From NCBI RefSeq assembly GCF_029207565.1, contig NZ_JANCMW010000015.1:1-64000 (forward strand): a stretch of 64,000 nucleotides of DNA, read 5' to 3'. The position numbers and the translations under genes were made by a program. Below, one piece after another: positions 1,588 to 28,228 of this stretch (position 1 is its first letter; the number at the start of each line of letters is the position of its first letter). Source of the stretch: Marinobacter iranensis. Its GTDB lineage: Bacteria > Pseudomonadota > Gammaproteobacteria > Pseudomonadales > Oleiphilaceae. The notes beneath the pieces are model-generated. The model was given only the letters and a program-made list of their open reading frames with translations, did not search any database and was not told the origin of the DNA.

Positions 1588-2310
1588 TTAACCTTTCCTG
1601 ATCTGCGCTTCTAATGCCTGCTCCGTCAGCGGCTCGCCCCACGTGTTCCCGTGGACCAGCTCGGACAATGGCAACCGCGAGCGCCAGCCTTTTTTCTCCA
1701 GCTCGGGCTGGTCAAGAAATTCGCTCACATAGCCAAGACACAGGTACGCCAATGGGTACACATGCTCTGGCAGGTTTAGCGTACGGGCGAGTTTATCCTG
1801 ATCCAGGATGCTTACCCAACCCACACCAATCCCCTCCGCTCGCGCTGCCAGCCAGAAGTTCTGTACCGCCAGGCAGGTGCTGAACAGATCCGTCTCCACA
1901 ATCGAATTGCGCCCCAGAACGTGTGTGCCGCCGCGGCTGCGGTCGCAGGTTATGCAGAGATTCACGGGGCTTTCGAGGATGCCCTGAAGTTTCAGGCTTT
2001 TATAGCGTGTATTGCGGTCTCCCTGGTAGTTTTCTGCCGCTTTGCGGTTCTCTTCCTCAAAAATCGAGAGGACCGTCTGGCGCACTCCAATGCTGTCAAT
2101 CACGATAAAATCCCAGGGCTGCATGAAGCCGACGGAAGGCGCATGATGCGCTGCGCTGAGCAGCCGGGTAAGAACGTCCGGAGGAATCGGGTCGGAAAGG
2201 AACTGTGAACGCACATCCCGCCGCTCATGGATAGCGCGATAAAGCCCTTTGGTTTCCTCGCCACTGAAGGGACGATTGTGGTCAGTCCTGTGTGTTTTAT
2301 TGTCGGTCAT
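1588..2310 (-). CDS. bluB: 5,6-dimethylbenzimidazole synthase
   Basis: BluB (240 aa) cannibalises reduced FMN with oxygen to give 5,6-dimethylbenzimidazole, the lower ligand of B12. The protein is a nitroreductase-fold enzyme with the diagnostic N-terminal RRDVR motif (residues 30-34, including Asp32, the position reported as essential in BluB) and the downstream APSVGFMQPWDFIV flavin-binding segment. It lies 18 bp after cobQ in the same operon, which favours BluB over a generic nitroreductase. Its presence implies that the cell can make its own lower ligand under aerobic conditions. Confidence 0.92.
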   Translation of the reverse strand: MTDNKTHRTDHNRPFSGEETKGLYRAIHERRDVRSQFLSDPIPPDVLTRLLSAAHHAPSVGFMQPWDFIVIDSIGVRQTVLSIFEEENRKAAENYQGDRNTRYKSLKLQGILESPVNLCITCDRSRGGTHVLGRNSIVETDLFSTCLAVQNFWLAARAEGIGVGWVSILDQDKLARTLNLPEHVYPLAYLCLGYVSEFLDQPELEKKGWRSRLPLSELVHGNTWGEPLTEQALEAQIRKG

Positions 2311-2328: not shown

Positions 2329-3786
2329 TCAGGTCAGGCCCAGCTGCTTCTTCAGGAAATCAGTGTCCAGACAATCCTCCACATGGTCCGCCAGCCGATC
2401 CAACTGCTGCAAACGGTGTTTCTGATAGTCCACGGCCTGGCCCTGTGATCGCAGACCCGCCCACTGCAGTATTTCGCTGGCAGCTTCGGCCTCGTCGAAA
2501 ATGCCGTGTACATAGGTGCCCATCACCTGGCCATCATCGCTGATCGCGCCATCAGGGCTCCCATCCAGCATTGCCAGCGGGCGCTCCAGGGCGGGACCAG
2601 TGGTAACGCCATTATGCATTTCATAACCCGTAAACCGGGTTTTACCCGCCCCAAGCCTGAGCACACCGGCCACGTCCTGCAATTGCTTGCCAGCAACCAT
2701 ACGTGTGGCCATATCCAGCAGACCCAGCCCTTCGGTACTGCCCACCTCGCCTTCCAGGCCGTCAGGGTCCAGTACTTCCCGGCCCAACATCTGGAAACCT
2801 CCGCAGATGCCAAATACCTTGCCGCCATAACGCAGGTGTTTGCGGATTGCCTCGGGCCAACCCTGGGAGCTCAGCCATTGCAGGTCATGACGGGTACTTT
2901 TACTGCCGGGCAAAACGATCAGGTCGGCCGGGGGAATGGGCTGGTCCGGGCCGATGAACCGAAGGTTGACTCCAGGGTGCAGGCGCAGGGGATCAAAGTC
3001 GTTGTGGTTACTGATGCGGGGCAGTACCGGGACGATCACATTCAGCGCGCCGGCTTCACTGCTACCGCTGATGCCCACGCTGTCTTCGGCATCGATCACC
3101 AACCCGTGCAGGTACGGCAGCACACCCGCCACCGGTTTGCCGGTGCGTTCGGCCAGCCAGTCCAGCCCCGGTTCCAGCAGGGCGATATCGCCCCGGAAGC
3201 GGTTGATGATAAAGCCTTTGGTACGAGCCCGCTCGCTGTCGGAGACCAGTTCCAGAGTGCCTACCAGTTGCGCAAAGACGCCCCCCTTATCGATATCGCC
3301 GACAAGCAGCACCGGACAATCTGCCGCTTCGGCGAAACCCATGTTGGCTATATCATTAGTGCGCAGATTGATCTCGGCCGGGCTGCCGGCGCCTTCGGCG
3401 ATGATCACGTCATAACGGGCGCTCAGTGCACGCCAGGCGTCCATCACCGAGGCCATCGCCTGGGCTTTGTAGGCATGGTAATCCAACGCGTCCATGTTGC
3501 CATGGACCTTGCCCCGCAGGATCACCTGGGCGCCGCAGTCGCTCTGGGGCTTTAGCAGCACCGGGTTCATGTCGCTATGGGGCTCCAGTCCGCAGGCCAA
3601 AGCCTGAAGCGCCGTGGAGCGACCAATTTCACCGCCATCCACAGTGACTGCGCTATTCAGGGCCATGTTCTGGGGCTTGAACGGCGCCACGGAAACACTC
3701 TGCCGCGCCAGCCACCGGCACAGGGCAGCCACCACCGTAGTCTTGCCGGCGTCAGAGGTTGTACCCTGAATCATCAATGTGGTCAT
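2329..3786 (-). CDS. cobQ: Adenosylcobyric acid (cobyric acid) synthase
   Basis: CobQ (485 aa) amidates four side chains of adenosylcobyrinic acid a,c-diamide using glutamine and ATP. The N-terminal dethiobiotin-synthetase-like domain starts [14 protein letters not shown] (P-loop). The C-terminal class I glutamine amidotransferase domain shows the nucleophile motif [11 protein letters not shown], and a late His lies in [10 protein letters not shown]. Length is typical. The gene starts 13 bp after cobO ends, so cobB-cobO-cobQ-bluB form one unit. Confidence 0.95.
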
Positions 3787-3799
3787 GGGGTCCTGTCCG

Positions 3800-4411
3800 T
3801 TAAAGCTCTACGCCTTTCTGGGCCTTGATGCCCTGATCCTTGAAGGCGTGTTTCACCACACCCATTTCCGTCACTGTATCTGCCAGATCAACCAGCTCCG
3901 CTGGCGCAGAACGGCCGGTGATGACCACGTGCTGCATTTCCGGCCGGCCCTGCAGGTCATCCAGCACCCGGTCCAGGTCAATGTAGTCGTACTTCAGGGC
4001 GATGTTGAGTTCGTCCAGCAGGATCAGGCCGTAGCTGTTGTCTTTCAACATGGCGGCCGCCACATCCCAGGCGGCGTTGGCGGCTTCCACATCCTGCTCC
4101 CGGTTCTTGGTGTCCCAGGTATAGCCCTGACCCATCACGTGGTAGTCCACATTGGGCAGGTCCCGGAAGAAGGCTTCCTCACCGGTGCTGAACGCACCCT
4201 TGATGAACTGGACAATGCCCACTTTCATGCCATGGCCCAGAGCCCGGGCGACCATTCCGAAGCCGGAGCTGCTCTTGCCCTTTCCGGGGCCGGTCAACAC
4301 CAACAACACACCCTGCTCTTTCTGGGCGCGGGCAATGCGCTCCTGCATGATTTTCTGTTTGGCATCCATGCGGCGTGCATGGCGTTCGGGGTCTTTGGCG
4401 CGTTCACGCAT
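3800..4411 (-). CDS. cobO: Cob(I)yrinic acid a,c-diamide adenosyltransferase (BtuR/CobO type)
   Basis: CobO/BtuR (203 aa) attaches the 5'-deoxyadenosyl group of ATP to reduced corrinoids. The P-loop GPGKGKSS (residues 41-48) and the later [10 protein letters not shown] segment are family signatures. The start overlaps the end of cobB by 8 bp, indicating translational coupling. The window encodes a second, unrelated adenosyltransferase of PduO type at 16050-16607, so two non-homologous enzymes for this chemistry are present. This one belongs to the synthesis and salvage operon. Confidence 0.93.
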
Positions 4412-5732
4412 GGTCAGGCTCCTTATCGATGAGCGGGCGAATGGCCTGCCCGCGAAAAATTCCAGCCACCAACTCAGGGGCCGAAGGGAAATAACCGTGG
4501 AAATAACTGGCCACCAGGCCGTTTTGGCAGAAGACTGGCTCAGCTTCCGTACCCGCCAGCTTTCGGGTTCGAGCCAGGGGTTGCCAGTCGGTCTCCAGGC
4601 GGGAGTGGTGATAGGTGTGGCCCCGCAGCTGCCCCTGCTCGGTGCTCAGGCGCTGCAGACCCAGCGCCTGCAGGCGGCCGGCCATGCTGGCACGCCCAGG
4701 CATCAGCCCCAGTAATTTATGGATCTGGCCATCATGATCCATCAGTTCGTCCACGCAGGCCATCAAACCACCGCATTCCGCCAGCATCGGCTTGCCAGCG
4801 GCGTAATGGGTGCGAATGGCATCCAGCATCGGCTGGTTGCCAGCCAGGGTAACGCCGTGCAGTTCCGGATAACCGCCCGGCAGCCAGATCGCATCGACTT
4901 CGGGTAATGTCGAATCCGCCAGCGGCGAAAAAAACTCCAGCTTCGCGCCCATGGCCCGCAGCAGGTCCAGGTTGGCGCGGTAGATAAAGCTGAAAGCCGC
5001 GTCCCGGGCAATGGCGATGCGCACACCCGTCAGTAACGGTGGCGGGGGCTCCGGGGCATCAGCTTCCAGCGTCACAGGAAGCGGCAGACCATCCAGACCC
5101 GCCTCGGCCAGGACATCGGCGGCGGCATCCAGGCGCTGGTCCAGATCATTCATCTCCCCGGCCTGCACCAGGCCCAGGTGGCGGTCCGGAATGTTCATGG
5201 CCTCGTTGCGGGGGATCGCCCCCAGCAGTTCTATACCCTCCGGTAAACTTTCCCGCAGCATGGCACCGTGGCGGGGACTACCAATGCGGTTCGCGATCAC
5301 CTGGCGAACCGGCAGCTCCGGATCGAAGCTAGCCAACCCCAGGGCCACCGCACCAAATGTCTGGGCCATACCACGGGCGTCGATTACCGGCAGAGCGGGA
5401 ATACCCATTAGCTTGGCCAGGTCTGCACTGGAGGGGTCGCCATCAAACAAGCCCATGGAGCCTTCCACCAGGACCAAATCGGCGTCTTGGGCCGCTTCTG
5501 TTAACCGCCAGCGGCATTCCGCTTCTCCGGTCATCCACGGATGCAACTGGTACACCGGTTGGCCAGAGGCGACTTCCAGCACCATAGGGTCCAGATAATC
5601 CGGTCCATGTTTGAACACCCGAACCTTGCGACCAGCATTCCGATGTAATCTCGCCAGGGCAGCGGTCACCATGGATTTCCCCTGGCCGGAGCCGGGAGCG
5701 GTAATCATTGCAGCTGCTACGGTTGCTTTCAT
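4404..5732 (-). CDS. cobB: Cobyrinate / hydrogenobyrinate a,c-diamide synthase
   Basis: CobB (442 aa; CbiA in anaerobic pathways) amidates the a and c side chains of the corrin ring. The N-terminal P-loop domain has APGSGQGKS, and DGDPSSADLAKLMGIP follows. The C-terminal glutaminase domain carries LPGGYPELH and the Cys motif LAECGGLMA. Whether the natural substrate is cobyrinate or hydrogenobyrinate cannot be read from the sequence, and no ring-synthesis genes (cobI, cobJ, cobM and so on) lie in the window. It heads cobB-cobO-cobQ-bluB, separated from btuD by the inverted repeat at 5774-5885. Confidence 0.92.
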   Translation of the reverse strand: MKATVAAAMITAPGSGQGKSMVTAALARLHRNAGRKVRVFKHGPDYLDPMVLEVASGQPVYQLHPWMTGEAECRWRLTEAAQDADLVLVEGSMGLFDGDPSSADLAKLMGIPALPVIDARGMAQTFGAVALGLASFDPELPVRQVIANRIGSPRHGAMLRESLPEGIELLGAIPRNEAMNIPDRHLGLVQAGEMNDLDQRLDAAADVLAEAGLDGLPLPVTLEADAPEPPPPLLTGVRIAIARDAAFSFIYRANLDLLRAMGAKLEFFSPLADSTLPEVDAIWLPGGYPELHGVTLAGNQPMLDAIRTHYAAGKPMLAECGGLMACVDELMDHDGQIHKLLGLMPGRASMAGRLQALGLQRLSTEQGQLRGHTYHHSRLETDWQPLARTRKLAGTEAEPVFCQNGLVASYFHGYFPSAPELVAGIFRGQAIRPLIDKEPDHA

Positions 5733-5897: not shown

Positions 5898-6668
5898 TCA
5901 ATGCTTAACAGGCACAAATAGTGGCGCACCATCTACCTCCACTGTCAGCAATTCCTGGTCGTAAAGTCGTTCGAGTGCTGCTGGCACGAGCATTCGCTTG
6001 GCGGGGCCCCAGCATGCTTCGCCGTTTGGGAAGAGTAATAACAAGTGGTCACACCAGCGGGCAGCCAGATTCAGATCGTGCAAGCACATAAAAACGGAAC
6101 GCCCAGCACGGGCTTGTTCGGTCAGTAACTGCAGTACCGATACCTGATGATGCAAATCCAGATGATTGGTGGGCTCGTCCAATAGCCAGGTATCAGGTGC
6201 CTGTGTCAGGACTGTCGCAATGGCGACGCGCTGGCGCTCGCCACCGGAGAGGGTATTCACCAGGCGATCGCTCAGATGAGCTACATCCAACTGTTCGAGA
6301 GCGCGGCGGGCGATGCGTTCGTCAGCCCCCGTTTCCATCTGCCAGGGTGACAGCCAGGGGTGGCGGCCGATCAGCGCGGTTTCCAGGACTGTGGCGGGAA
6401 ATCCATCCTGGCGGTCCTGAAACACCAGTCCCAGTTGCCGGGAAATTTGCCGGCGTTTTAACTCGTTCAGCGAATTCTCGCCAAGGAAAACAGCACCCTG
6501 ACGTGGCTCCAGCAGGCCGGCAAGGGTATGGAGCAAGGTTGTCTTGCCAGCGCCATTCGGCCCCAGAACGCCCCATATCTGCCCGGGTTGTACCGAGAAG
6601 TTCAGCGCCTCCCCGTCGTCCCGCCCGGGAATATCGATCACCAGTTCTTGCGCCTGTAACGGGTTCAT
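5898..6668 (-). CDS. btuD: Corrinoid ABC transporter ATP-binding protein
   Basis: This 256-aa ABC ATPase of the FecE/BtuD group powers uptake of vitamin B12 across the inner membrane. Walker A is GPNGAGKT (residues 36-43), the signature LSGGE is at 140-144 and Walker B WLLDEP is at 161-166. The start codon overlaps the btuC stop (TAATG), so the two are translationally coupled. B12 specificity is inferred from the btuB-btuF-btuC neighbourhood and the upstream cobalamin riboswitch; by sequence alone iron-siderophore or heme ATPases look alike. Confidence 0.9.
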   Translation of the reverse strand: MNPLQAQELVIDIPGRDDGEALNFSVQPGQIWGVLGPNGAGKTTLLHTLAGLLEPRQGAVFLGENSLNELKRRQISRQLGLVFQDRQDGFPATVLETALIGRHPWLSPWQMETGADERIARRALEQLDVAHLSDRLVNTLSGGERQRVAIATVLTQAPDTWLLDEPTNHLDLHHQVSVLQLLTEQARAGRSVFMCLHDLNLAARWCDHLLLLFPNGEACWGPAKRMLVPAALERLYDQELLTVEVDGAPLFVPVKH

Positions 6669-7639
6669 TAGCGGCTCCGGTACAGCAGGTAAAGGAAGGT
6701 TGGCACACCCAGCAGAGCGGTAATCACCCCTACCGGCAACTGCTCTGGCGCAATGACCACCCGCGCCAGGGTATCCGCCAGTACCAGCAGTGTGCCGCCG
6801 GCCAGGGCACAGGCAGGCAGGATCAGCCGCTGGTCGTTACCCAGCACCAGCCTCAGCATGTGGGGCACCACCAGACCAACAAACCCGATGCTGCCGGCCA
6901 TGGTCACTGCAGTGGCCGTCAGCAGGCTGGCAAGGATATAGATCATCCATTCCAGGGGCCGCACTGAAACTCCAAGAGCCGCGGCCTGCATGGGGCCGCG
7001 GGCCAGTACGTTAAGGCTGCGGCCCAACGGCACCACCAGAAGGCACACCAGAAAAAGAAGCACCAACGCCGGCCAGGGTGAACGGGCGTAGGACACGTCA
7101 CCCATCAGCCAGTACAGCATGCCCGGCAGACGCTGGGCGGGGCTGATGGCCAGCATCAGAGTGATCACCGCGCCCCAACCCGCTGCGACAACCACGCCGG
7201 TCAGCAGCAAACGTGATGGCGTCCAGCTGCCGGTACCATGGGCGAGCCCGAATACCATTAATGTCGCCAACATGGCACCGGCAAAGGCCGAACCGGAAAC
7301 GATCAAGCCACCCAGGCCCGCCAGCATCGCCAACAGCGCGCCCACCGCGGCGCCGCCTGAAAGACCAAGTACATAGGGATCTGCCAGCGGATTGCGGAGA
7401 AGCACCTGCATCAGCGCTCCAGCCACCGCCAAGAGGCCACCCGTTGCGAAGGCCGACAGCGTGCGGGGTAGTCGCAGTTCCAACACCAGGGTTTGCTGCA
7501 GGTGGCTACCCTCACCGAGGATGACCGCCGCGACCTCCCCTGGTGTCACGCTGACACTGCCGATGCCCACGGACAACACCATGGCAGCCAGGCTGGCCAG
7601 AGCCAGAATCAACAACGGCATGGTCAGTGGTCTGCTCAC
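6668..7639 (-). CDS. btuC: Corrinoid ABC transporter permease
   Basis: This 323-aa, very hydrophobic protein of the FecCD/BtuC family is the inner-membrane channel for corrinoid import. Family landmarks are the early LRLPRTLSAFATGGLLAVAG segment, RNPLADPYVLGLSGGAAVG, and GFVGLVVPHMLR near the C-terminus, which forms the ATPase-coupling loop. Many transmembrane helices are evident (about ten are expected for the family). It lies 15 bp after btuF and overlaps btuD by one base. Confidence 0.92.
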   Translation of the reverse strand: MSRPLTMPLLILALASLAAMVLSVGIGSVSVTPGEVAAVILGEGSHLQQTLVLELRLPRTLSAFATGGLLAVAGALMQVLLRNPLADPYVLGLSGGAAVGALLAMLAGLGGLIVSGSAFAGAMLATLMVFGLAHGTGSWTPSRLLLTGVVVAAGWGAVITLMLAISPAQRLPGMLYWLMGDVSYARSPWPALVLLFLVCLLVVPLGRSLNVLARGPMQAAALGVSVRPLEWMIYILASLLTATAVTMAGSIGFVGLVVPHMLRLVLGNDQRLILPACALAGGTLLVLADTLARVVIAPEQLPVGVITALLGVPTFLYLLYRSR

Positions 7640-7654
7640 GTGGCTGACCTCGCA

Positions 7655-8551
7655 CTAGCGTTTGGCACGGGCATCGTCCAGTTTCTCGCAGAACAGTTGT
7701 GAGCCTTCCAGCATGCGCGGTGTCGGGCGCTGGACCAGTGAAGGCGGAATGAAGTACAGGTTTTCCCTGGCGGTGGCATCAATACTGGGAAATGCCTCCC
7801 ACCGGGCCAGCCAGTGCCGGTTTTCTTCCCCCATGCCACCCGCCAGGATGGCTTCGGGATTGGCGCCGATCACCGCTTCGGCGCTGATCCTGGGTACCAG
7901 GCGTTCAAGGTCGCCAAACACATTCACCCCGCCACAGAGGGAAATAACCTTGCCGATCAGATGTTCGTCATTCACCGTCATCAAGGGTTCGTCCCAGACC
8001 TGATAGAACACCGATACCGGCTCGGCATCACGATACTGGCGTTCCAGAGCGGCAATGCCCTGGCGGAACCGATCCGCTTCGGCAAAACCTTCTTCATCGG
8101 TACCGGCCAGGAGCGACAGCCGTTCAATCGTATGTGATACATCCTCAAAGCTGCGGGGCTCGATTGAGAATACGGGCAGGCCCAGATCCCTCAACGCCTC
8201 AATCTGCTCCGGGGGATTGCCGGTCACCCAACCGATCACCAGGTCCGGCTGCAGTTCCATCAAGCGCTCCAGATCCATGCGGGTATGGCTACCTACCGAG
8301 GGAACTTCCTTTGCTTGATCCGGATAGTCGCTGAAGGAGACCACAGCCACCACCTTGTCACCGGCACCTGCCGCCCAGACCAACTCGGTAGCCCCCGGAG
8401 ACAAGGCCGCAATACGGGTGGCCGGCTGCTCAAGGCAGACCTCCCTGCCGGTATCATCGGTTGCGCATACTTCGGCAACCACTACGGCAGCCTGCCCAAT
8501 GGCAAGCAGGGACACACCCAGGGCGATGAGATACCTGAACGAATTCAACAT
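7655..8551 (-). CDS. btuF: Periplasmic corrinoid-binding protein
   Basis: BtuF-type class III binding protein delivers cobalamin to BtuCD. I place the start at the ATG at 8551 (MLNSFRYLI...), not at an in-frame upstream codon. This gives a clean signal peptide and an ATGTTGA overlap with the stop codon of the upstream CobN-like gene. The mature part has the usual IAALSPGATELVWAAGAGD opening and VSFSDYPDQAKEVPSVG. Length is about 298 aa. Substrate is inferred from context (btuB, riboswitch); a heme or siderophore ligand cannot be excluded from sequence alone. Confidence 0.88.
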   Translation of the reverse strand: MLNSFRYLIALGVSLLAIGQAAVVVAEVCATDDTGREVCLEQPATRIAALSPGATELVWAAGAGDKVVAVVSFSDYPDQAKEVPSVGSHTRMDLERLMELQPDLVIGWVTGNPPEQIEALRDLGLPVFSIEPRSFEDVSHTIERLSLLAGTDEEGFAEADRFRQGIAALERQYRDAEPVSVFYQVWDEPLMTVNDEHLIGKVISLCGGVNVFGDLERLVPRISAEAVIGANPEAILAGGMGEENRHWLARWEAFPSIDATARENLYFIPPSLVQRPTPRMLEGSQLFCEKLDDARAKR

Positions 8552-11500
8552 GACACCTTCTGGCTCTTCTGGTTCTGGCAATTGTCATTGGCCGCACGCA
8601 TGGAGGGATAATCCGCAGCGCCACCCTTTCGGGCGGATTCGAAGGCCTCCCTTTGACGTGGATCCAGTTGATCCGCAACCCAGTCCATCAAGGGGTGATC
8701 CGGGCGAGTGTGCCCGCTGCCGGGCAGGCCATGGTCAATGATATTCCCCGCGAAGTCACGCGCCAGCGCCTTCCGGGTGAACACGTCCGCCTGCCAGAAT
8801 CCGCGCTTGGCTGCCAACAGTGCAATCGCCTGCATATGCGTCTTGACGTGAACATTGTGGCCTTCTGCCAGGAAGTCATCCAGGCCCAGCCCGTGGCGGT
8901 CCTGGAAGTAGACTTCGTTGACCTCATCCCAGACACTGGAACGAAGCACCTGGGGACTGGTGATCTGCCAGCCCCACAGGTTATCGAGGAAGTCGCTTCC
9001 CATGGTACGTGCCCCGGCGTAGCCATGCTCCATCAACGGTGCCAGCCACTGTGGATTGAGGTTGCGGGCGCGCAGCTCCACCTGCAGCGCACGCTGGAGG
9101 GAGTCCACCCGCGGGTTTTTCGGATCCGCGTACTGCAACACCCGGTTCTGCGGGGGCTCGCCGCGCAGATGTTCCACGGCATTGGACAAGCCACCCTGGA
9201 AATCAAAACCGTCATCGTTATCCAGCAGACCGTAGAGATGGCTGGCCCGCCCAAGGTACGTGTGATTCACGGTGTTCAACTGGCGGTCAAACGCCTGATG
9301 AGCCGGGTCTCCCCGGGAACCCTTGCCATAGACATGCCCCATGCGGCGGCGGTAGGCATCGCCCAGTTGGGCCCGATCCTCCCAGGCGCCGGTGCGGGTA
9401 GCCAGGCGGTTAACGCCGGCGCCATAGGCCCCCGGCGCAGTACCAAAGACCCGATAAGCGGCCTGGGCACCGGCATCCCGCGCAGAAGCACCCGCAGCCA
9501 GCAACACCCGGGTGTCCGCAACCCAGCGTACAGCAACCCCATTGGTTGCCAGGGATTCATTGCCGGGTTCACGCATATTGGCGGGCAGTACCGACAACGC
9601 CTGCTCCAGCGCCTGCTCCAGTTCCGGGTGCTCCACCCTGATGGATTCCGCAGCACCAGCCAGGGCATAGCGGGAGGCCATATCCAGCCATTCAAGCTGG
9701 CTTTCATAAAGATCCCGGAACAGCCCGGAGGTGGTGAACACCACATTACGCCGCACCGGTGTATCGGTCCCCGGCCCGGCGGGCAGGCGCTCCAGGCCCT
9801 TCACGATACCCCGGCTGTTCCATACCGGGCGAATCCCCAGCAGCTTCATGCCGAAGGCAATCATCACGCCTTCGTCCCGCACCGTGTCCGAGGCCCAGAG
9901 CACCAACGCGTCGCTCTGCTCCGGTGTGCTGTCTTTTTCGGCCCTGGCCTCTTCCACCAGTTCGGTGGCCAGCGACCAGGCAACCCTGGTTGGAATCAGG
10001 TCATCGGACAGGGCGTGGAAATTGCGCCCCGTTGGCAATGCAGCCGGCGTGCGCAATGGGTCGTTACCCTGCCCTGGCGCCACGAAACGGCCATCCAGCG
10101 CCGCGAGAAAACTATCGCGTTCAGACGCTGGAGAGGCTTCGAGATGTTTACGCCAGACTGGCTCGGGAGTACCGGCCTTGCCGGCCATGGAGTCCAGCAT
10201 GGTATCCACCATCTCGGCACTCCAGTCCCGGCCAAACACGTGTAGCCCCAGGGGCATGAAATGCTCCTGCATATCAGTCACGTAGTGACCAGCCTCGTGA
10301 ACCAGAAGATCCGGTGACAATTCATCCAGGGAGACCTCTTCCACGGACAGCCCCATCTCACCGGCGATTTCCTGCTCCAGGTCGTCGGAAATATCCAACA
10401 CCTGGATTTTCTCCCGCAGCATCTCCAGGGCCCGCTCCCGGGTAGGGCTGTCCGGTTCGTTGGCGGACTCCCAGGTTTCCACGAGCTGCCGGAGTTCCAG
10501 CAGTTCATCGTAGAGCTCCGTGGCCGCCAGAGGCGGCGTCAGATGGCTGATCATTACTCCCAGGGCCCGCCGCTTGGCCTGGATGCCCTCGCCCACACCG
10601 TCCACGATGTAGGGATAGATCAACGGCAGGTCACCCCCCAGCAGGTCCGGGTAGTCATCCCCCGTCAATCCGGCCCGACGGCGTGGCAGGAATTCCCTGG
10701 TGGAGTGGCGTCCCACATAGACCAGCGCATCCGCCTGATAGTGATCCCGCAGCCAATGGTAGAACCCCACGTATTGGTGGGTAGGCGGGAAGGTCAGGTT
10801 GGCGTGCAGCAGTTCCTCGTCCACTTCCCAGCCCCGGGGTGGTTGTGGGCCGATATAGATGTTGCCGAAACGAAGGCCGGGGAAAATCAACCGGTCGTCC
10901 ACCACCATCGACTGCCCGGGTGCTGCGCCCCACCCCTTGAGTCCGGGGATCCTCGTGTCGGCCAGGGCAACCCGGCTATCTTTCAGTTCGTCCTTGTGAC
11001 CACCTTCATCAAGACGCCTTTGCCAGAGCGCCTCATACTCATCCAGCCGAACCAGCGCGGCCCTGCGATTGGGATGCTGGAGGTGTTCGATCAGGTGCCG
11101 CAGGTCACGGATGCCGCGGCTCAGCAACCCCGTTGCCAGATCTTTCTCGCCCATTGCATGGGCCTGCTCAAGACGCTCGTGCAGATACCCCAACGGCCCA
11201 TGAACCATTTCCTGCCGGACAACCGCCGGCAAGGTTTCGAAGTAGCTTTGGTAGGTGTCACTGGACATGGAGGCAACCTCACCCGCCATATCACGCAAAG
11301 CGCGGGGGTCATCCGGCAGGCTTACGCCCCGTTGCTGTAGCAGGTCGGTGAGAGCCTTGGGGCTGTCCGGCAGCGGGCCGGTGTCATAACCTTCGGCCTT
11401 GAGCCAGGTCAGCATTTCGTAGAGGGAGGCTGGCACATCCAGGTTATCCGCGCCGATGTTCTGCCGGCCCGGAGGGTGGTTGTAGTAGATGATGGCGACG

Positions 11501-12759
11501 CGCTTGTCGGCGTTGTCCCTGGCCTGCAGTGCATGCCAGCGCTTGAGTCGGTCAGCAACCGCCTCCACCCGTTCCGGCACCGGCTGGGTCAGGGTCAGGG
11601 CCACACCGGTGCGCTCATCAATCACCTTCGGTTCCGCCGTCGCCAGTACCATGGGCTGGCTGACGCCCTGAAGTTCCGGCATCGCCAGCTTGTAATGCAC
11701 TTTATCCGAAGGGATGCCGTCGACCGACAATTGCCATTGATTGGCTGTTCGGGACGCCAGTCGCAGGCCTTTGATGACCGGCACATCCAGCCGGGTGAGC
11801 GCTTCGGTAACCTGGCGCCGGCCCTCGCCACCGCCGATAGTAAAGTCCTGCAGACTGACAATGCCGGAAAGGCTCGCCGGGCCAACCGTTTCATCCAGGG
11901 AACGAATCGCCTCCAGGCTGGCACCGCCCCACCGGGACAAAATGGCAAAGCACTGGATGCCGCGGGATTCCAGGGCCGCGCAGGTTGCGTCCAGCAACGC
12001 CCGATCGCCCGGGCGGTCGCCGCTGTCCAGGTCCAGGAGCGTTACGACCGGGCCAGAGCGCAGGTTCAAGTCCGCCGGATCATCCATGGCCTCACCATCG
12101 CGGTAATAGCGAATCAGCGCCCGGGGCGGCAGATCCGGCACGTTCATATCCTCGCCTGCCTGCGCCAGCAACCAGCGCAATACCCCATCCAGGTGTTGCG
12201 GGGTGCGGCCCTGGTAGAGAGCCCTGCCCTCAAGCCAGGGTTCCTGATCGGGAAACCGACCTTTCAATCCCTCCAGATGGGCTTTCAGATCCTCTCCGGG
12301 ATCCGGAGCTTTCATGAGGTTATTGAGGGCCGTGGCATCGAGCCTTTCCAGAACGGCGCGTCCTTCCAGCCGCGACAGTACGGTCAGGGCCCTGTCGCCG
12401 TTCACGGCCAGTATCGGAAAGTCACGCACGGAAGCCTGTTCGCGCACGGCCCGCTCGATCCGCCCAACCTGTTCGCCGAAAACCGCTGCCATCAGCAGTG
12501 CGTCGGCCTGCCCCACAAGATCATCAAGGGCCTTGTTGTCCAGTTTTGCCAACTGCTCCGGGGTTCGCAGGATAACCCGGTGCTCCGGGTGGGCGGCCAG
12601 GAAGTGCTCCGCGCCTGCGGCCATCTCTGCAGCCGATCGTTCCGAGATCACGCCGAATACCGTGGCACCAAACACCGGGGGCGAGAACAGCATTACCAGA
12701 CCCAAAAAAAAAGCAAACACCGGGCGGTTCCTATCTCGACCTGGACGTGTGTGGTTCAT
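8545..12759 (-). CDS. Exported CobN-like tetrapyrrole metal chelatase/dechelatase protein
   Basis: This is a 1404-aa protein of the CobN/BchH large-subunit family. Recognisable CobN blocks include GRHSTREFLP near residue 680, FTTSGLFRDLYES near 1010, FGTAPGAYGAGVNRL near 1105 and DNDDGFDFQGGLSNA near 1180. Unlike classical cytoplasmic CobN it begins with basic residues, a hydrophobic stretch (PVFAFFLGLVMLF) and a small-residue cleavage region, i.e. a signal peptide. No CobS/CobT or ChlI/ChlD ATPase partner is in the window. It sits between btuB and btuF, with a good ribosome site (GGAGAGG) and a coupled downstream gene. This suggests a periplasmic role in corrinoid or other metallo-tetrapyrrole handling, perhaps metal removal as described for the related HmuS. 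The function is inferred, not shown. Confidence 0.8.
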   Translation of the reverse strand: MNHTRPGRDRNRPVFAFFLGLVMLFSPPVFGATVFGVISERSAAEMAAGAEHFLAAHPEHRVILRTPEQLAKLDNKALDDLVGQADALLMAAVFGEQVGRIERAVREQASVRDFPILAVNGDRALTVLSRLEGRAVLERLDATALNNLMKAPDPGEDLKAHLEGLKGRFPDQEPWLEGRALYQGRTPQHLDGVLRWLLAQAGEDMNVPDLPPRALIRYYRDGEAMDDPADLNLRSGPVVTLLDLDSGDRPGDRALLDATCAALESRGIQCFAILSRWGGASLEAIRSLDETVGPASLSGIVSLQDFTIGGGEGRRQVTEALTRLDVPVIKGLRLASRTANQWQLSVDGIPSDKVHYKLAMPELQGVSQPMVLATAEPKVIDERTGVALTLTQPVPERVEAVADRLKRWHALQARDNADKRVAIIYYNHPPGRQNIGADNLDVPASLYEMLTWLKAEGYDTGPLPDSPKALTDLLQQRGVSLPDDPRALRDMAGEVASMSSDTYQSYFETLPAVVRQEMVHGPLGYLHERLEQAHAMGEKDLATGLLSRGIRDLRHLIEHLQHPNRRAALVRLDEYEALWQRRLDEGGHKDELKDSRVALADTRIPGLKGWGAAPGQSMVVDDRLIFPGLRFGNIYIGPQPPRGWEVDEELLHANLTFPPTHQYVGFYHWLRDHYQADALVYVGRHSTREFLPRRRAGLTGDDYPDLLGGDLPLIYPYIVDGVGEGIQAKRRALGVMISHLTPPLAATELYDELLELRQLVETWESANEPDSPTRERALEMLREKIQVLDISDDLEQEIAGEMGLSVEEVSLDELSPDLLVHEAGHYVTDMQEHFMPLGLHVFGRDWSAEMVDTMLDSMAGKAGTPEPVWRKHLEASPASERDSFLAALDGRFVAPGQGNDPLRTPAALPTGRNFHALSDDLIPTRVAWSLATELVEEARAEKDSTPEQSDALVLWASDTVRDEGVMIAFGMKLLGIRPVWNSRGIVKGLERLPAGPGTDTPVRRNVVFTTSGLFRDLYESQLEWLDMASRYALAGAAESIRVEHPELEQALEQALSVLPANMREPGNESLATNGVAVRWVADTRVLLAAGASARDAGAQAAYRVFGTAPGAYGAGVNRLATRTGAWEDRAQLGDAYRRRMGHVYGKGSRGDPAHQAFDRQLNTVNHTYLGRASHLYGLLDNDDGFDFQGGLSNAVEHLRGEPPQNRVLQYADPKNPRVDSLQRALQVELRARNLNPQWLAPLMEHGYAGARTMGSDFLDNLWGWQITSPQVLRSSVWDEVNEVYFQDRHGLGLDDFLAEGHNVHVKTHMQAIALLAAKRGFWQADVFTRKALARDFAGNIIDHGLPGSGHTRPDHPLMDWVADQLDPRQREAFESARKGGAADYPSMRAANDNCQNQKSQKVSC

Positions 12760-12781: not shown

Positions 12782-14593
12782 TCAGATGTCGTAACGTATA
12801 GTCAGCATTGTGGTGCGGCCCGCGGCTATGTAGGCATCTCCACCCGAGCGCAATGCCGTGGCGTATTCCTTGTCTAACACATTGTCCAACGTCACATTGG
12901 TGGTCCAATGATTGTCGATACGCCATTTCGCCCGCAAATCCCAAGTGGTAAAGCCAGCGATGCGGTCCTCATTTTCAGCATCGTCGTAGCGATAGCCCTG
13001 GCCTTTAACCGTGGTGCCCACAGAAACGCGGCCAAAGGCCCGGTCGACATCAACCCGGAACTGTTTGGCGCTGCGACGACGAATGCGATTGTCAGTCTCC
13101 CGGTCACGGGGGTCGGTTACTGACGCGGCAGCCTTTACGGTCCATTCGTCCAGTTCCAGGCCAGCACTCAGCTCGGCACCCCGGATACGCGCCTCGTTGA
13201 CATTAAACGGGGCCGCCCGTCCGTCTATTGTGGTGAACACGATCAGGTCATCTGCGTCGGTCTGATAAATAACAGCATCCCAGAACCAATGGGTGTACTG
13301 GCCGCCAATACCAAGTTCCACGCTACCTGCGGTTTCCGGCTGCAGGTCTGCATTGCCAAAGTTGGGGAAATAAAGATCGTTGAAGGTCGGCGCGCGGAAA
13401 GACGTGCTGTAGCTCACCCTGGCGCGATGGTTCCGGTCCAGATCGACGCCCATAGCCACCGCCCCTGTTTCTTCGCGACCAAATGCCTCGTTGTCGTCCG
13501 CCCGCAAGCTCAATTGAAAGTCTGTAGGACCGAAGTTCAGTAGGGCCTGACCAAAAACGGCAGCGTTGGTGCGGCTGGTTTCGTCGAAATCAGTGGTGCT
13601 CTCCACTTCGTCCACCAGGAGTTCACCGCCCACGATGTACTCATGGCGCCCCGCACTGATCTGATTCTCCCAGCGAGCGCTACGAGTCTTGGTGTCGAAG
13701 GTGCTATTGCCGAAGGAATCGCGAGTGTCCTGCTCGTCAAGGGATTCCGCCAGCAGAATGCGGCTGCGCCAGTAATTGCTTATGGGTGCGTCCAGACGGA
13801 AACCTAGAGTCTGGATGGCAAAATCGGTGTCACCACCCTCAAATTCGGTGTTGCCCTGGGCACGCATGAGTACAACCCCGGCTTCCCCGCCCGAGTCAAA
13901 CTGGTGAGCAACGGACGCCAGGGCTGATGTATTACGGAAACCTTTGTCTTCACCGCCCTCCACGATGGCGGTGCCGTCCGTTTCCAGGTGGCTTGCACTC
14001 AGGCTGTATTTCATCCGACCTTCAGTACCGGCTGCACCCGCCACATACTCCTGAGTGTTGAAATTGCCGCCTCCCGCCTGGACCCAGCCTTCGTGGCCGG
14101 TTTCAGCGCTGTGGGTGAAAGCCTGGATGACACCACCCACGGCATCGGCACCGTAAAGGTTACTGCGGGAGCCACGGACAATTTCTACCCTCTCCACCAT
14201 TTGCGGTGGGAAATACTGCCAGGCTGCACTACCGCTGGTGGCCGAGCGCAAGCGGATGCCATCCACTAGGAACACCGTGGATTCGCTACCGGTGCCCCGG
14301 GTATACACACTGGTATTCTTTCCGAAAGAGCCGTTACTGGTGATATCAAGGCCCGGCTGGCCCACCAGCAGCTCCTCGAATGTCTGGGGCTGCAAACGTT
14401 CGATAGCCTGTTCATCAATCACTGTTACTGACGAATCGCTTTCGCCCCGCGTCTTCGGACCAAGCGTGGCCGTAACAACAATGGGATCCAGCGCCGAGAC
14501 AGTAGTCTCTTCGGCGGCTAACGCATCGGAAACTGGCAGGAAAACAAGGGGGAGACCGGACAACAGGACCGGCACGGACTTCGAATAACCCAT
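12782..14593 (-). CDS. btuB: TonB-dependent outer-membrane cobalamin receptor
   Basis: BtuB-type receptor (about 603 aa from the ATG at 14593; an in-frame TTG lies 18 bp upstream). A signal peptide is followed by a TonB box-like segment (DPIVVTATLG), then the plug domain (FEELLVGQPGLDI, VFLVDGIRLRSATSG, VERVEIVRGSRSNLYGADA) and a beta-barrel ending in TTMLTIRYDI. The size matches BtuB (about 600 aa) and is smaller than most siderophore receptors. A cobalamin riboswitch lies directly upstream, which makes B12 the likely ligand. The next gene, the exported CobN-like protein, starts 22 bp downstream. Confidence 0.93.
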   Translation of the reverse strand: MGYSKSVPVLLSGLPLVFLPVSDALAAEETTVSALDPIVVTATLGPKTRGESDSSVTVIDEQAIERLQPQTFEELLVGQPGLDITSNGSFGKNTSVYTRGTGSESTVFLVDGIRLRSATSGSAAWQYFPPQMVERVEIVRGSRSNLYGADAVGGVIQAFTHSAETGHEGWVQAGGGNFNTQEYVAGAAGTEGRMKYSLSASHLETDGTAIVEGGEDKGFRNTSALASVAHQFDSGGEAGVVLMRAQGNTEFEGGDTDFAIQTLGFRLDAPISNYWRSRILLAESLDEQDTRDSFGNSTFDTKTRSARWENQISAGRHEYIVGGELLVDEVESTTDFDETSRTNAAVFGQALLNFGPTDFQLSLRADDNEAFGREETGAVAMGVDLDRNHRARVSYSTSFRAPTFNDLYFPNFGNADLQPETAGSVELGIGGQYTHWFWDAVIYQTDADDLIVFTTIDGRAAPFNVNEARIRGAELSAGLELDEWTVKAAASVTDPRDRETDNRIRRRSAKQFRVDVDRAFGRVSVGTTVKGQGYRYDDAENEDRIAGFTTWDLRAKWRIDNHWTTNVTLDNVLDKEYATALRSGGDAYIAAGRTTMLTIRYDI

Positions 14594-14699
14594 ATCAACA
14601 CTCGCTGGCAAACCATGCGCACCCGCATGGTGATTGTTATGTTGCGGAGCTTGAGAGTGAGACTGGGGGAGGCAGGATACGAGTCAGGGTACGGGTGTG

Positions 14700-14935
14700 A
14701 GACCGACACAACTCTCCCACCGCCGTCGCCCTCCGCAACTTCCGGTGTGTATTCAGGCCGGTCTCCGGGCTTGCGAGTGGGGCAGCCTGTTGGGCTGGTC
14801 CGGGGCAATCACCTTCCCATGCATGACGCACAGTGGTTTTTACGATTGCCTTTAGCTCACTTACCGTTGCGGGGGCAGCGTCGGACTTTAACCGACTTCC
14901 CGTTTTAAGCTTTCCTGCGGGGATACCGCGAAAAA
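14700..14935 (-). promoter_or_regulatory. Cobalamin (AdoCbl) riboswitch upstream of btuB
   Basis: Read on the minus strand, the leader contains the ordered conserved blocks of the cobalamin riboswitch: a GGGAAGTCGGT...AAGTCCGACGC region, the GCCCCCGCAAC core (plus-strand about 14866-14876), an ACCACTG box (about 14829-14835), ATGGGAAGG, and the AGCCCGGAGACCGGCC element (14756-14771). A GCGGAGGGCGAC tail follows that could form the kissing loop. Outer boundaries are approximate. It lies 100-340 nt before the btuB start, so B12 is expected to repress btuB and the downstream transport genes. The rest of the 405-nt gap between btuB and the next gene shows nothing else certain. Confidence 0.95.
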
Positions 14936-14998
14936 AGCGTTACCTGAATACGGTGTTCATTTAATCGGGGGCCAAACTAGCAGCCCCTATGTGCTAAA

Positions 14999-16015
14999 TC
15001 AATAAAGACGACTTAAATACAGTGCCCGCTCAAACCGGGCCCATTCCGGCTCGGAGCCGGGCAACCCAAACCTCAGGGCCGCGGGATCCTCGAACTCCCG
15101 GACAAGGATCCCCTGGCGTGCCAACGCCGTTGCGATATCCGCGGCCCGGCTATCGCGAACGTATCGAAACAGCGCTGTACCGGTGGAACCATCAAGACCA
15201 TGGCGCGACAGGCATTCCGACAGTCGTCGGCTTTCGCTGTTTAATCGCTCGGCGGTCGCGGCGCGCCATGGATGGTCCGCCAGTACCCGGCTCATCACAA
15301 ATCGCGCTGGGCCACTGACAGACCAGGGCCCCAGGACCTGTCCGAGCCGGCCCACAATATCGGGATCACCCGCAACCGCACCTGCCCGCAGACCCGCGAG
15401 GCCAAAAAACTTGCCCAGGGACCTCATCGCCGCAAGCCCTGGCCGGTCGGTCGCGAAGCCAACGCTGAATTCCGGCGAGGCATCGATGAACGCCTCATCC
15501 ACGATCAGCCAGCCGCCCCGGCGTTGCAGCCGATCATGCCAGCCCAATAACCGATGTGGGTCGATGAGCTGGCCGGTCGGGTTGTTCGGGTTGATCAACA
15601 CCAACACATCCAGTTCGTCCAGCCAGGTCTCATCATTACTGACGAGTTGCTCACCGGTAATGCCTGTCACCCAATGGCCCCCAGCGACCCAACAATGCCC
15701 ATGCTCCTCGTAACCGGGCGAAGGCACCCCCACCCGGCACGGTGACCTCAACCGTGGCAGGGCCATAATCGCTGCCTGGCTGCCGGCAATAGGCATACAG
15801 GCGGAAGCATCCGGCGCACCAAGCCACTGCCTGATGCGTTGTTCCAGGCCATCATCAGGCTCCGGCAGGCGACGCCAAACCTCCTCGGGAATCACCGGCA
15901 CGGGCCAACCCAGCGGGTTGATGCCAGTGGAAAGATCCAGCCACTGCTCCAGCGGGATATCCCATTTCCTGGCGGCGGCGCGCAGCCGGCCGCCGTGCTC
16001 CGGAGGTAACATCAT
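14999..16015 (-). CDS. cobD: Threonine-phosphate decarboxylase (aminopropanol-phosphate branch of B12 synthesis)
   Basis: This PLP enzyme of the histidinol-phosphate aminotransferase fold (338 aa) converts L-threonine phosphate to (R)-1-amino-2-propanol phosphate. It is called CobD in Salmonella and CobC in Pseudomonas denitrificans. The opening EHGGRLRAAARKW...DLSTGINPLGWP is diagnostic for this family. NPNNPTG lies at 142-148, the cofactor Asp in IVDEAF near 173, and the PLP lysine is Lys202 in SLGKFFGLAGLR. It follows pduO by 34 bp and precedes the riboswitch. Partner genes cbiB, cobU/P, cobS/V and cobT/U are not in the window. Confidence 0.9.
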   Translation of the reverse strand: MMLPPEHGGRLRAAARKWDIPLEQWLDLSTGINPLGWPVPVIPEEVWRRLPEPDDGLEQRIRQWLGAPDASACMPIAGSQAAIMALPRLRSPCRVGVPSPGYEEHGHCWVAGGHWVTGITGEQLVSNDETWLDELDVLVLINPNNPTGQLIDPHRLLGWHDRLQRRGGWLIVDEAFIDASPEFSVGFATDRPGLAAMRSLGKFFGLAGLRAGAVAGDPDIVGRLGQVLGPWSVSGPARFVMSRVLADHPWRAATAERLNSESRRLSECLSRHGLDGSTGTALFRYVRDSRAADIATALARQGILVREFEDPAALRFGLPGSEPEWARFERALYLSRLY

Positions 16016-16049: not shown

Positions 16050-16607
16050 TCATTCGCCGGGCACCCACAGAACATCATCTTTTCCCTTGCCATTGGCGTG
16101 CCTGGCAAGCACGAACAACAGGTCAGACAAACGATTCATGTACTCCAGCACCGACTGGCTGATGTCCTGGTCCTGCTTCAACTGAACGATGATCCGCTCA
16201 GCCCGGCGCGTTACTGTGCGGGCATGATGGAGATGGGTTGCGGCAGGATTGCCCGCCGGAAGAATAAACGACCGCAACGATGGGATATCCGCATTGAACC
16301 GGTCAATTTCCTGTTCAAGCTCAAGGGTTTTCGAATCCGCCAGCCTGAGTGGTGGGTATTTCGGGCTCTCCTCGAACGGCGTACAAAGATCCGCACCAAC
16401 GTCGAACAGATCGTTCTGGATGCGCGCCAGTATCCCATCCAGTTCCTCGTCCACATGGAGCCTCGCAAGCCCGATCACGGCATTGGCTTCGTCTACAGTG
16501 CCATAGGCCTCCACGCGCAGATCGTACTTGGCAACCCGGCTGCCATCACCCAGGCCGGTGTCGCCCTTGTCTCCGGTTTTCGTGTATATCTTGGTGAGCC
16601 TAACCAT
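16050..16607 (-). CDS. pduO: PduO-type cob(I)alamin adenosyltransferase
   Basis: PduO/MMAB-type ATP:corrinoid adenosyltransferase (185 aa) makes coenzyme B12 from cob(I)alamin. Visible signatures are the N-terminal ATP-binding TKTGDKGDTGLGDG (from residue 9), RRAERIIVQL, and the C-terminal EYMNRLSDLLFVLAR. It starts 42 bp downstream of the acyl-CoA mutase large subunit gene. In other organisms such enzymes load AdoCbl directly onto a neighbouring mutase, so its role here is probably to serve the HcmAB-type mutase. It is unrelated to the CobO enzyme at 3800-4411. Confidence 0.93.
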   Translation of the reverse strand: MVRLTKIYTKTGDKGDTGLGDGSRVAKYDLRVEAYGTVDEANAVIGLARLHVDEELDGILARIQNDLFDVGADLCTPFEESPKYPPLRLADSKTLELEQEIDRFNADIPSLRSFILPAGNPAATHLHHARTVTRRAERIIVQLKQDQDISQSVLEYMNRLSDLLFVLARHANGKGKDDVLWVPGE

Positions 16608-16649
16608 TCATTTCTCCCGCGAACCGGTTCGGTCAGTTTACGAAGCCGG

Positions 16650-18347: not shown

Positions 18348-19314
18348 GAATCGTCTCCTTCATGGCTTTTAACAAGGTCACCGCGGCTCCATGGGGATCC
18401 AGTTCGCGTTGGGTAACCTTCTTGAGCAGCTCTTCGGTTTGCGACCTGCTGTCACGTACAAAATTGTCCCGGACGATTTCTTCGGCCACTTTCACCACCC
18501 GGGTCAATGCAATCTGGCGTCGGCGTTCGGTGATTTCGCCACTGCGTTCCAAGTGTTCCGCGTGGCGATCAATCGCAGCCATCAGTTCGCCGAAACCGGT
18601 GTGCTTTTCAGAACTGGTGGGCACCACCGGTACCCGCCAGATGCCCTCACCCGGCTCCAGGCTCATCATCAGCATGGCCTTGAGTTCCTGGATGGTTCTG
18701 TTGGAGTCCGGCCGGTCCGCCTTGCTCACCACATGGACATCGGCAATTTCCAGCACCCCAGCCTTGATGGCCTGAATGTCGTCGCCCAATCCAGGCGCGT
18801 TGACAACCACGGTGGTGTGGGCAGCGCGCACGATATCGACTTCGTCCTGGCCCACCCCGACTGTTTCGATGAGGACCACGTCGAACCCGCCCGCATCCAG
18901 CAGATCCACCGCATCCAGGGCCGGCCTGGCCAGACCACCCAGGGTTCCCCGGGTGGCCATGCTGCGGATGAACACCCCGGGGTCGGAAACCAGGTCACCC
19001 ATGCGGATGCGGTCGCCGAGGATCGCACCGCCGGAAAACGGGCTTGAGGGGTCGATGGCAACAACGCCCACGGTGCGGCCACTTTTCCGGTATTCATGAA
19101 CCAGTTGTGTAACGAGGGTCGACTTCCCGGCCCCTGGAACACCGGTAATGCCCACCACGTGAGCATTACCGGTGCTCTTGTAGAGTTCGGCCAGGGCCTG
19201 GCGTACATCGGGGTCGCCGCCACTTTCAACCCGGGTGATGAGCCGGGCAATTGCGCGAAGGTGGCCTTCCCGCACCCGTTCAGCCAGTTTCATCGAAGGT
19301 ATGCGGTTAATCAT
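18334..19314 (-). CDS. meaB: MeaB/ArgK-family GTPase chaperone of the acyl-CoA mutase (MeaH)
   Basis: This 326-aa G3E P-loop GTPase protects and reloads B12-dependent mutases. The P-loop is GVPGAGKST (58-66), followed by VAIDPSSPFSGGAILGDRIRM, the DxxG-like ETVGVGQDE and the guanine-specificity motif SKAD. It is embedded in the mutase operon: its end overlaps hcmA and its ATG begins immediately after the ligase stop. Its partner is therefore almost certainly this mutase. The copy linked to HcmAB has been called MeaH in the literature. Confidence 0.92.
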   Translation of the reverse strand: MINRIPSMKLAERVREGHLRAIARLITRVESGGDPDVRQALAELYKSTGNAHVVGITGVPGAGKSTLVTQLVHEYRKSGRTVGVVAIDPSSPFSGGAILGDRIRMGDLVSDPGVFIRSMATRGTLGGLARPALDAVDLLDAGGFDVVLIETVGVGQDEVDIVRAAHTTVVVNAPGLGDDIQAIKAGVLEIADVHVVSKADRPDSNRTIQELKAMLMMSLEPGEGIWRVPVVPTSSEKHTGFGELMAAIDRHAEHLERSGEITERRRQIALTRVVKVAEEIVRDNFVRDSRSQTEELLKKVTQRELDPHGAAVTLLKAMKETIHESH

Positions 19315-20736: not shown

Positions 20737-20812
20737 CGGAGACTCCTGATCTTGTTATTGGTTGTCGTCTGAGGAAATCTGTCATGAATGCCCGGCCATT
20801 ACGGTGCCGCAG

Positions 20813-28076: not shown

Positions 28077-28228
28077 GATCAAAACCTGTACGCGCGAAAC
28101 TGGGAGCCGAGGCACGCATCCTGTGGCGCCGGAGCGTCTGGTAACAGGAAAATGCCGGCCATCTGAAAGGCCGCAATGATACTTGAAACGGGCACCGGGA
28201 TACAGCGCCAAAAGGTTATAAACCGTCC

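Follow-up and report, generated by a model that had tools for sequence, protein, structure and literature searches.

The window analysed here, the whole stretch of 64,000 nucleotides at positions 1 to 64,000 of contig NZ_JANCMW010000015.1 of Marinobacter iranensis (assembly GCF_029207565.1), contains in a B12 uptake operon a gene, called cobN below, for a predicted exported protein of 1404 amino acids (aa) that is related to the cobaltochelatase subunit CobN. Judged from its sequence, this protein is not CobN proper and, by its residues and its operon, not the heme-linked HmuS either, and it belongs to a clade, linked to B12, within the exported class of the family. We favour, with a probability of about 0.4, the reading that it is a periplasmic corrin-metalating enzyme, either cobalt-inserting or metal-correcting, which would serve early-corrinoid salvage and would ancestrally have been driven by a proton motor; part of B12 metal chemistry may then take place outside the cytoplasm. 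New here are the observations that the Billgrantia and Thioalkalivibrio orthologues have a C-terminal anchor and neighbouring genes for ExbB-like and DUF2149 proteins as in hmu operons, with Marinobacter lacking all three, that five Thioalkalivibrio have the exported protein as their sole CobN-family locus, next to a corrin cluster of the aerobic, late-cobalt (CobG) type, and that Marinobacter cobN occurs only alongside cobB and encodes an active-site Asp, as does CobN, and not the His of HmuS and BchH.

The first-pass annotation, made from the letters of the window, had proposed a 1404-aa CobN-family protein with an N-terminal signal peptide, encoded between btuB and btuF, and this was confirmed, the signal peptide as a signal-like N-terminus. 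The open reading frame (ORF) lies on the minus strand, which had not been stated before, and its product matches a single Pfam family, PF02514 (E 1.3e-238), in three pieces that together span most of its length; it scores below the cut-offs of six of six listed NCBIfam CobN models (562 against 1248 and 494.9 against 822.05, for example) and far below every cut-off of the listed BchH models. By eye and by hydropathy, its N-terminus runs from a basic region through a hydrophobic stretch to a small-residue cleavage site, with a mature start at about A32, and inspection showed the same signal-like layout in the full-length Marinobacter loci and in 3/3 Billgrantia and 5/8 Thioalkalivibrio proteins, the remaining three Thioalkalivibrio proteins being read from over-long starts that hide the signal region. 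Relatives were found at 30 named loci, two of them partial (18 Marinobacter, 3 Billgrantia, 8 Thioalkalivibrio and one Aquisalimonas contig), and the ratio of nonsynonymous to synonymous substitution rates (dN/dS) was 0.086-0.176 in five cobN comparisons and 0.041-0.163 for operon neighbours, values that are imprecise given that dS was often >1. Since the frame recurs at these loci with a dN/dS near that of its neighbours, it is not a chance ORF, and cobN is under purifying selection. This selection makes it very improbable that cobN is a functionless remnant of a synthesis pathway that has been lost, as could be thought from the lack of a motor and an anchor and from the frames that are broken in two of the ten Marinobacter genomes carrying it. 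In one of these two, the complete genome of Marinobacter salarius R9SW1 (L022), cobN, btuF, btuC and cobQ are all split, and since several operon genes are split together, sequence errors are likelier than decay.

Phylogeny placed the protein on the exported side of the family. The tree (38 rows, 1125 columns, unrooted, with groups preassigned from hydropathy and gene context) took 38 of the 51 CobN-family sequences gathered, omitting L005, L007, L008, L017, L020, L026 (a partial contig), L029, L030, L033, L069, L070, L077 and L128; L004, L009, L012, L013, L015, L022, L023, L025, L028, L031, L073 and L074 were never gathered and are, besides L025 and the Thioalkalivibrio pair L028 and L031, Marinobacter loci or broken copies. 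Marinobacter, Billgrantia and Thioalkalivibrio proteins form one clade with the window protein (support 100/100, on a long stem of 1.48), while a 99/98 branch splits cytosolic CobN and BchH from all exported proteins, so that a single change on the tree separates exported from cytosolic proteins. A constraint uniting the clade with cytosolic CobN was rejected by the approximately unbiased (AU) test (p 0.0048), and HmuS joins the other exported group on a branch with support of only 82/77. Cupriavidus campinensis and genome G056 each have one cytosolic and one exported CobN-like gene (loci L078, L071 and L072).

The first-pass annotation had also seen no ATPase partner gene in the window, and this holds genome-wide for the models tested. 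The host genome has one PF02514 locus only, no CobT (PF06213) was found in it, with the CobS model TIGR01650 not searched as such, and its best score for the ChlID-type ATPase model TIGR02442 was just 33.4 bits. This score reached 48.7 bits at best among the 10 cobN-bearing Marinobacter, and five relatives at the order level scored 330 to 454 bits, against a working line of 300 bits; the model's own cut-off of 779 bits was reached by no study genome and by 1/14 control genomes. PF01078 detected one ComM-like 512-aa frame in the host genome and five weak generic matches, and cobH/cbiC was absent from 14/14 Marinobacter genomes tested, host included. Within the limits of these markers, the host looks like a salvager without classical cobaltochelatase, since a single PF02514 locus was found and no CbiC/CobH, CobT or ChlID-type ATPase. 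A CobW marker was seen at 0/34 loci of the clade versus 12/15 cytosolic CobN loci (the markers being taken from 4 of those 12), and cobW usually adjoins cobN in aerobic clusters (PMC7689651). At L072, another exported locus, a weaker CobW match lies some kilobases away. It is thus very unlikely that the protein is an ordinary cytosolic CobN with a merely signal-like N-terminus and a missed ATPase partner, an explanation that would agree with the PF02514 homology, with the Asp described below and with the presence of cobB and cobO in the operon: the CobT and ChlID searches, the tree test, the N-terminus recurring in three genera, and the C-terminal helix with its RRR tail in Thioalkalivibrio all disfavour it, as do the missing CobW marker and cobH/cbiC.

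The residues of the active site separate the protein from HmuS. His685, Glu689 and Glu724 stand at columns that are invariant in the tree (Table 1), and an alanine mutant of HmuS at His538, the counterpart of His685, has lost activity (PMC12583661). At the column of HmuS His1209, however, Asp is found in 12/12 clade members and in 12/12 CobN, and His in 3/3 BchH and 2/2 HmuS, two kinds of porphyrin enzyme that the tree places on opposite sides. The HmuS motif LSLDHxxEFMGG is not matched, with Asp1183 in place of His1209 and Asp1186 in place of Glu1212, and Tyr681 and Ser686 are unique to the clade, the other 26 rows having His and Gly at these positions, respectively. A structure was predicted for residues 215-1404 only, from 23 aligned rows (mean predicted local distance difference test score, pLDDT, 77.7; predicted template modelling score, pTM, 0.59), and it is weak at residues 471-482 and 959-969 of the folded piece, the catalytic loop region; active-site geometry was dropped because these loops are poorly modelled, and the comparison of folds supports a class-I chelatase fold only. 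The model aligned with M. tuberculosis CobN (7C6O, VIA Z 33.0, root-mean-square deviation (rmsd) 21.3, 802 residues), with ChlH (4ZHJ, Z 31.6, rmsd 19.9, 765 residues) and with HmuS (9D26, VIA Z 28.5, rmsd 23.1, 863 residues). The protein thus shares with CobN, the late-insertion cobaltochelatase, the fold, the catalytic His and Glu, the Asp at the corrin column and co-occurrence with cobB and cobO, but differs in its predicted signal peptide, its separate clade and its missing AAA+ partner and CobW marker; ChlH/BchH share the fold and the catalytic columns, but are cytosolic, act on porphyrin and form a separate clade.

The operon runs from a cobalamin riboswitch through btuB, cobN, btuF, btuC, btuD, cobB, cobO and cobQ to bluB, with the 3' end of cobN overlapping the btuF ATG at 8551 (Table 1). 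Profile searches of the operon proteins found none of the hmuYR-STUV operon genes.

Table 1. Positions in the window of the cobN operon, its riboswitch and the cobN codons discussed
Feature	Position	Strand	Basis or remark
Exported CobN-like protein, 1404 aa (BtuS/HmuS side of PF02514)	8545..12759	-	ORF, Pfam, tree
Predicted signal peptide, about residues 1-31	12667..12759	-	By eye and hydropathy
His685 codon, column of essential HmuS His538	10705..10707	-	His in 38/38 tree rows
Glu689 codon, aligned with ChlH Glu625	10693..10695	-	Glu in 38/38
Glu724 codon, aligned with ChlH Glu660	10588..10590	-	Glu in 38/38
Asp1183 codon, column of HmuS His1209	9211..9213	-	Asp in CobN; His in HmuS, BchH
Cobalamin riboswitch ahead of btuB	14749..14951	-	RF00174, 96.9 bits
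BtuB-like TonB-dependent receptor	12782..14611	-	TIGR01779 441.9 bits, below its 599.7 cut-off
BtuF-like periplasmic corrinoid-binding protein	7655..8551	-	PRK03379 162.8 bits, below 234
BtuC-like permease	6668..7639	-	Profile matches
BtuD-like ATPase	5898..6668	-	Profile matches
CobB, (hydrogeno)cobyrinic acid a,c-diamide synthase	4404..5732	-	NF002204 424.3 bits, cut-off 254
CobO/BtuR corrinoid adenosyltransferase	3800..4411	-	Profile match
CobQ cobyric acid synthase	2329..3786	-	Profile match
BluB 5,6-dimethylbenzimidazole synthase	1588..2310	-	Profile match

Just upstream of the riboswitch, positions 14999-16015 encode a class I/II aminotransferase that is probably CobD-like; L077 has CobD annotated at the corresponding place. 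Beyond it lies a B12-using cluster on the minus strand (16050-21238) with a PduO-type adenosyltransferase, a methylmalonyl-CoA mutase-like large subunit, MeaB, an AMP-binding protein and a small B12-binding protein, and a minus-strand ORF of 1346 aa occupies 24171-28211.

Outside Marinobacter, the exported gene comes with a putative motor. Genes for an ExbB-like and a DUF2149 protein follow cobN in 3/3 Billgrantia and 8/8 Thioalkalivibrio, and the pair also adjoins 8/9 other exported CobN-like genes and 2/2 hmuS genes, which gives 21/23 non-Marinobacter exported loci versus 0/22 Marinobacter loci, some of them on short contigs; a Pfam check supported both families in Thioalkalivibrio, in G055 and in G051, and a single one of them in each of two Billgrantia. 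The hmu operons described in the literature are composed in the same way, with the ExbB/DUF2149 pair (PMC10434189). DUF2149 (PF09919) was found in 0/37 genomes of our Marinobacter-genus sample (G000, the host, to G036), and a Billgrantia DUF2149 protein used as query gave no match in 10 Marinobacter genomes and was found in 6/6 genomes outside the genus. A C-terminal hydrophobic helix was present in 10/10 non-Marinobacter orthologues, 9/9 other exported proteins and 2/2 HmuS measured, followed by an RRR tail in Thioalkalivibrio, and in 0/12 Marinobacter and 0/18 cytosolic proteins measured, by the criterion of a 17-residue hydropathy mean >1.6, a line that was drawn after seeing the values and that the lowest positive passed at 1.61. 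Taking anchor and ExbB/DUF2149 together as the trait of the BtuS class, which is our own criterion, the trait is present in the Billgrantia and Thioalkalivibrio orthologues and absent in Marinobacter, and the simplest reading of the tree is that Marinobacter lost the anchor and the motor genes. On a Runella slithyformis plasmid (L076), an exported CobN-like gene lies with a TonB receptor, ExbB and DUF2149 within a NiFe-hydrogenase maturation cluster, a setting that suggests a nickel-linked version of the module.

In Thioalkalivibrio versutus (L027), the gene stands in a cluster with the order riboswitch, btuB, pduO, exported cobN, exbB-like, DUF2149, cobO, cobB, cobA, cbiD, ABC ATPase, ABC-2 permease, cobG, cobH, cobI, cobJ, cobL (with CbiE and CbiT domains) and cobM, in which cobB and the corrin genes from cobA to cobM each exceed one or more of the curated NCBIfam cut-offs. 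CobG is a marker of the aerobic pathway with late cobalt insertion, and cobG homologues are found at the other four Thioalkalivibrio loci as well; L024, L030, L031 and L032 have the same cluster, and L033 has it as far as cbiD. Markers for cobH/cbiC were found in 5/8 Thioalkalivibrio and 0/3 Billgrantia. None of the 11 genomes of these two genera has a PF02514 locus besides that of the exported protein, and none has a TIGR02442 match >43.0 bits, with CobS, CobT, CbiK and CbiX not searched; if all four are absent, the exported protein would be the only candidate known to us for the cobalt step in Thioalkalivibrio. The ABC ATPase and ABC-2 permease genes (19348-21062 of L027) overlap cbiD and precede cobG, homologues stand at this position in four further clusters of Thioalkalivibrio, and the pair is a possible corrin exporter.

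Within the Marinobacter sample, cobN is carried by 10/37 genomes and cobB scores above cut-off in 16/37. cobB accompanies cobN in 10/10 genomes, and the 6/16 cobB genomes without cobN have otherwise the same operon, bluB not being seen in two of the six stretches. If the genes were independent, the chance of this nesting would be 2.3e-5, a figure that overstates the significance because the genomes are related. Among the 21 genomes without cobB, the three examined (L119-L121) have kept cobO and cobQ. That cobN occurs only where cobB does suggests a substrate still needing CobB, and perhaps an action of cobN upstream of CobB, whereas the classical pathway places CobN after CobB, with the a,c-diamide as its substrate (PMC7689651, PMC10206600).

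These distributions bear on a rather unlikely alternative, that the protein is a corrinoid-binding chaperone or filter without chelatase activity, holding corrinoids released by BtuB in the periplasm and passing them to BtuF. The location of cobN between btuB and btuF with its end overlapping the btuF start, the lack of DUF2149 in Marinobacter, the operons without cobN and the replacement by Tyr681 and Ser686 of residues that are invariant elsewhere in the set would all suit such a role, but against it stand the conservation of His685, Glu689 and Glu724 in each of the 12 clade members in the tree, seven Marinobacter loci where cobN is apart from btuF, between cobB and cobO, the restriction of cobN to cobB genomes and the pairing of its orthologues with ExbB/DUF2149.

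The first-pass annotation had suggested that the protein may be a periplasmic enzyme or chaperone acting on incoming corrinoids or other metallo-tetrapyrroles, possibly by removing metal, and had called it the best candidate for an undescribed activity. The signal-like N-terminus, the missing ATPase partner, the placement and the general likeness to HmuS agree with the first part, while the metal-removing step is less supported, given the Asp column and the B12 operon, and the ground is partly known. Exported CobN-like proteins are already published as BtuS/HmuS (PMC6460266, PMC12583661, PMC13227078, the last on the location and heme work of P. gingivalis HmuS), BtuS being a third CobN-related type according to Rodionov 2003 as cited in PMC6460266, and a CobN without CobST beside TonB genes on a Geobacter lovleyi plasmid has been reported, its role being called unknown (PMC3403914). 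Most remaining bacterial and archaeal members of the superfamily are described as not reliably annotatable (PMC12583661). We found no description of the B12-linked exported clade in the literature searched, although Rodionov 2003, the source of the BtuS name, may have noted it. The Geobacter (now Trichlorobacter) lovleyi plasmid (L130) has two cobalamin riboswitches ahead of a TonB receptor, DUF2162, ExbB, DUF2149 and exported CobN, then exbB/exbD/tonB; its CobN resembles the window protein's orthologues in this company, but falls in another exported clade, beside the Runella protein, and is a second, separate B12-linked exported CobN. The Pseudomonas aeruginosa operon PA1922-PA1925 also joins TonB receptor, cobN-like and ExbD-like genes (PMC4542158, PMC8456098, PMC8531726), but is regulated by zinc starvation (Zur), and the likeness noted here is one of gene content.

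HmuS itself is a heme de-chelatase (PMC12583661), and an HmuS-type enzyme that removes metal without ATP in the periplasm, from wrong-metal corrinoids, heme or other metalloporphyrins, has to be weighed. Such an enzyme would fit the same exported side of the tree, the required His538 conserved as His685 and the hmu module shared by the orthologues, and a constraint uniting the clade with HmuS was not rejected (AU p 0.0535). We nevertheless consider it unlikely, given the Asp for His1209 and for Glu1212 and the B12 riboswitch and corrinoid operon without hmuY or hmuTUV; with the second histidine motif and the operon not matching, filing the protein as HmuS was rejected. Corrins hold cobalt very firmly, which makes stripping of B12 unlikely. 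The HmuS role has contrary data of its own: a B. fragilis btuS1 btuS2 double mutant grows poorly on heme iron and still releases protoporphyrin from heme (PMC6460266).

Insertion or correction of metal fits better than stripping because of the Asp column, the B12 control, the presence of cobB, cobO and cobQ in the operon and the orthologues in an aerobic corrin-synthesis cluster. Under the metalation reading that we favour, and from sequence features from which we infer location, substrate, reaction direction and motor coupling, BtuB would bring corrinoids into the periplasm, where the exported enzyme with its class-I chelatase fold would act on them, most likely putting cobalt into metal-free (hydrogeno)corrinoids or swapping a wrong metal for cobalt; the product would then be imported by BtuF/BtuCD and finished by CobB, CobO, CobQ and BluB. 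In the ancestral form, as in Billgrantia and Thioalkalivibrio, the C-terminal helix would serve as an anchor, and a proton motor of ExbB and DUF2149, coupled to the enzyme, would take the place of the AAA+ motor (CobST/ChlID) that cytosolic CobN uses; the Marinobacter form, having lost both anchor and motor, would be a soluble, motor-free version.

Several points weigh against metalation. HmuS proteins, the only characterised exported relatives, remove metal (PMC12583661), grouping with them was not rejected by the AU test, and both clade constraints were chosen once the tree had been seen. The other, uncharacterised exported proteins have Asp at the His1209 column in 7/9 cases and His in 2/9, and the Tyr681 and Ser686 replacements could mean altered or lost catalysis. 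Genome G052 combines a cytosolic CobN with cobW and CbiC, yet its TIGR02442 scores are <=39.7 bits and CobT was not found, so that a missing ChlID match is not fully diagnostic. Thioalkalivibrio may have another cobalt chelatase (CobST, CbiK or CbiX). The ExbB/DUF2149 pair is missing at two non-Marinobacter exported loci, Cupriavidus (L078) and Aquisalimonas, where the contig extends only 1.2 kb downstream of cobN, and in Marinobacter a motor may not be needed or may be supplied by another system.

A bolder form of the metalation reading, which we regard as doubtful, holds that in some bacteria late cobalt insertion, in synthesis or in salvage, is extracytoplasmic, with an anchored CobN and its ExbB/DUF2149 motor replacing the ATP-driven CobNST. 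In Thioalkalivibrio, metal-free corrin would be made inside, exported through the ABC-2 exporter-like pair, metalated in the periplasm and re-imported, and the motor-free Marinobacter form would complete, before CobB, metal-free corrinoids made by others.

If metalation outside the cytoplasm is true, cobalt insertion need not take place in the cytosol or draw on ATP, one and the same chelatase body can be run by a proton motor in place of an AAA+ motor, and bacteria would share metal-free corrinoids as a common good. It would also give a testable role to proteins annotated as CobN in databases, such as the Marinobacter sp. M3C and Trichlorobacter records, a name under which a salvager can be mistaken for a producer of B12.

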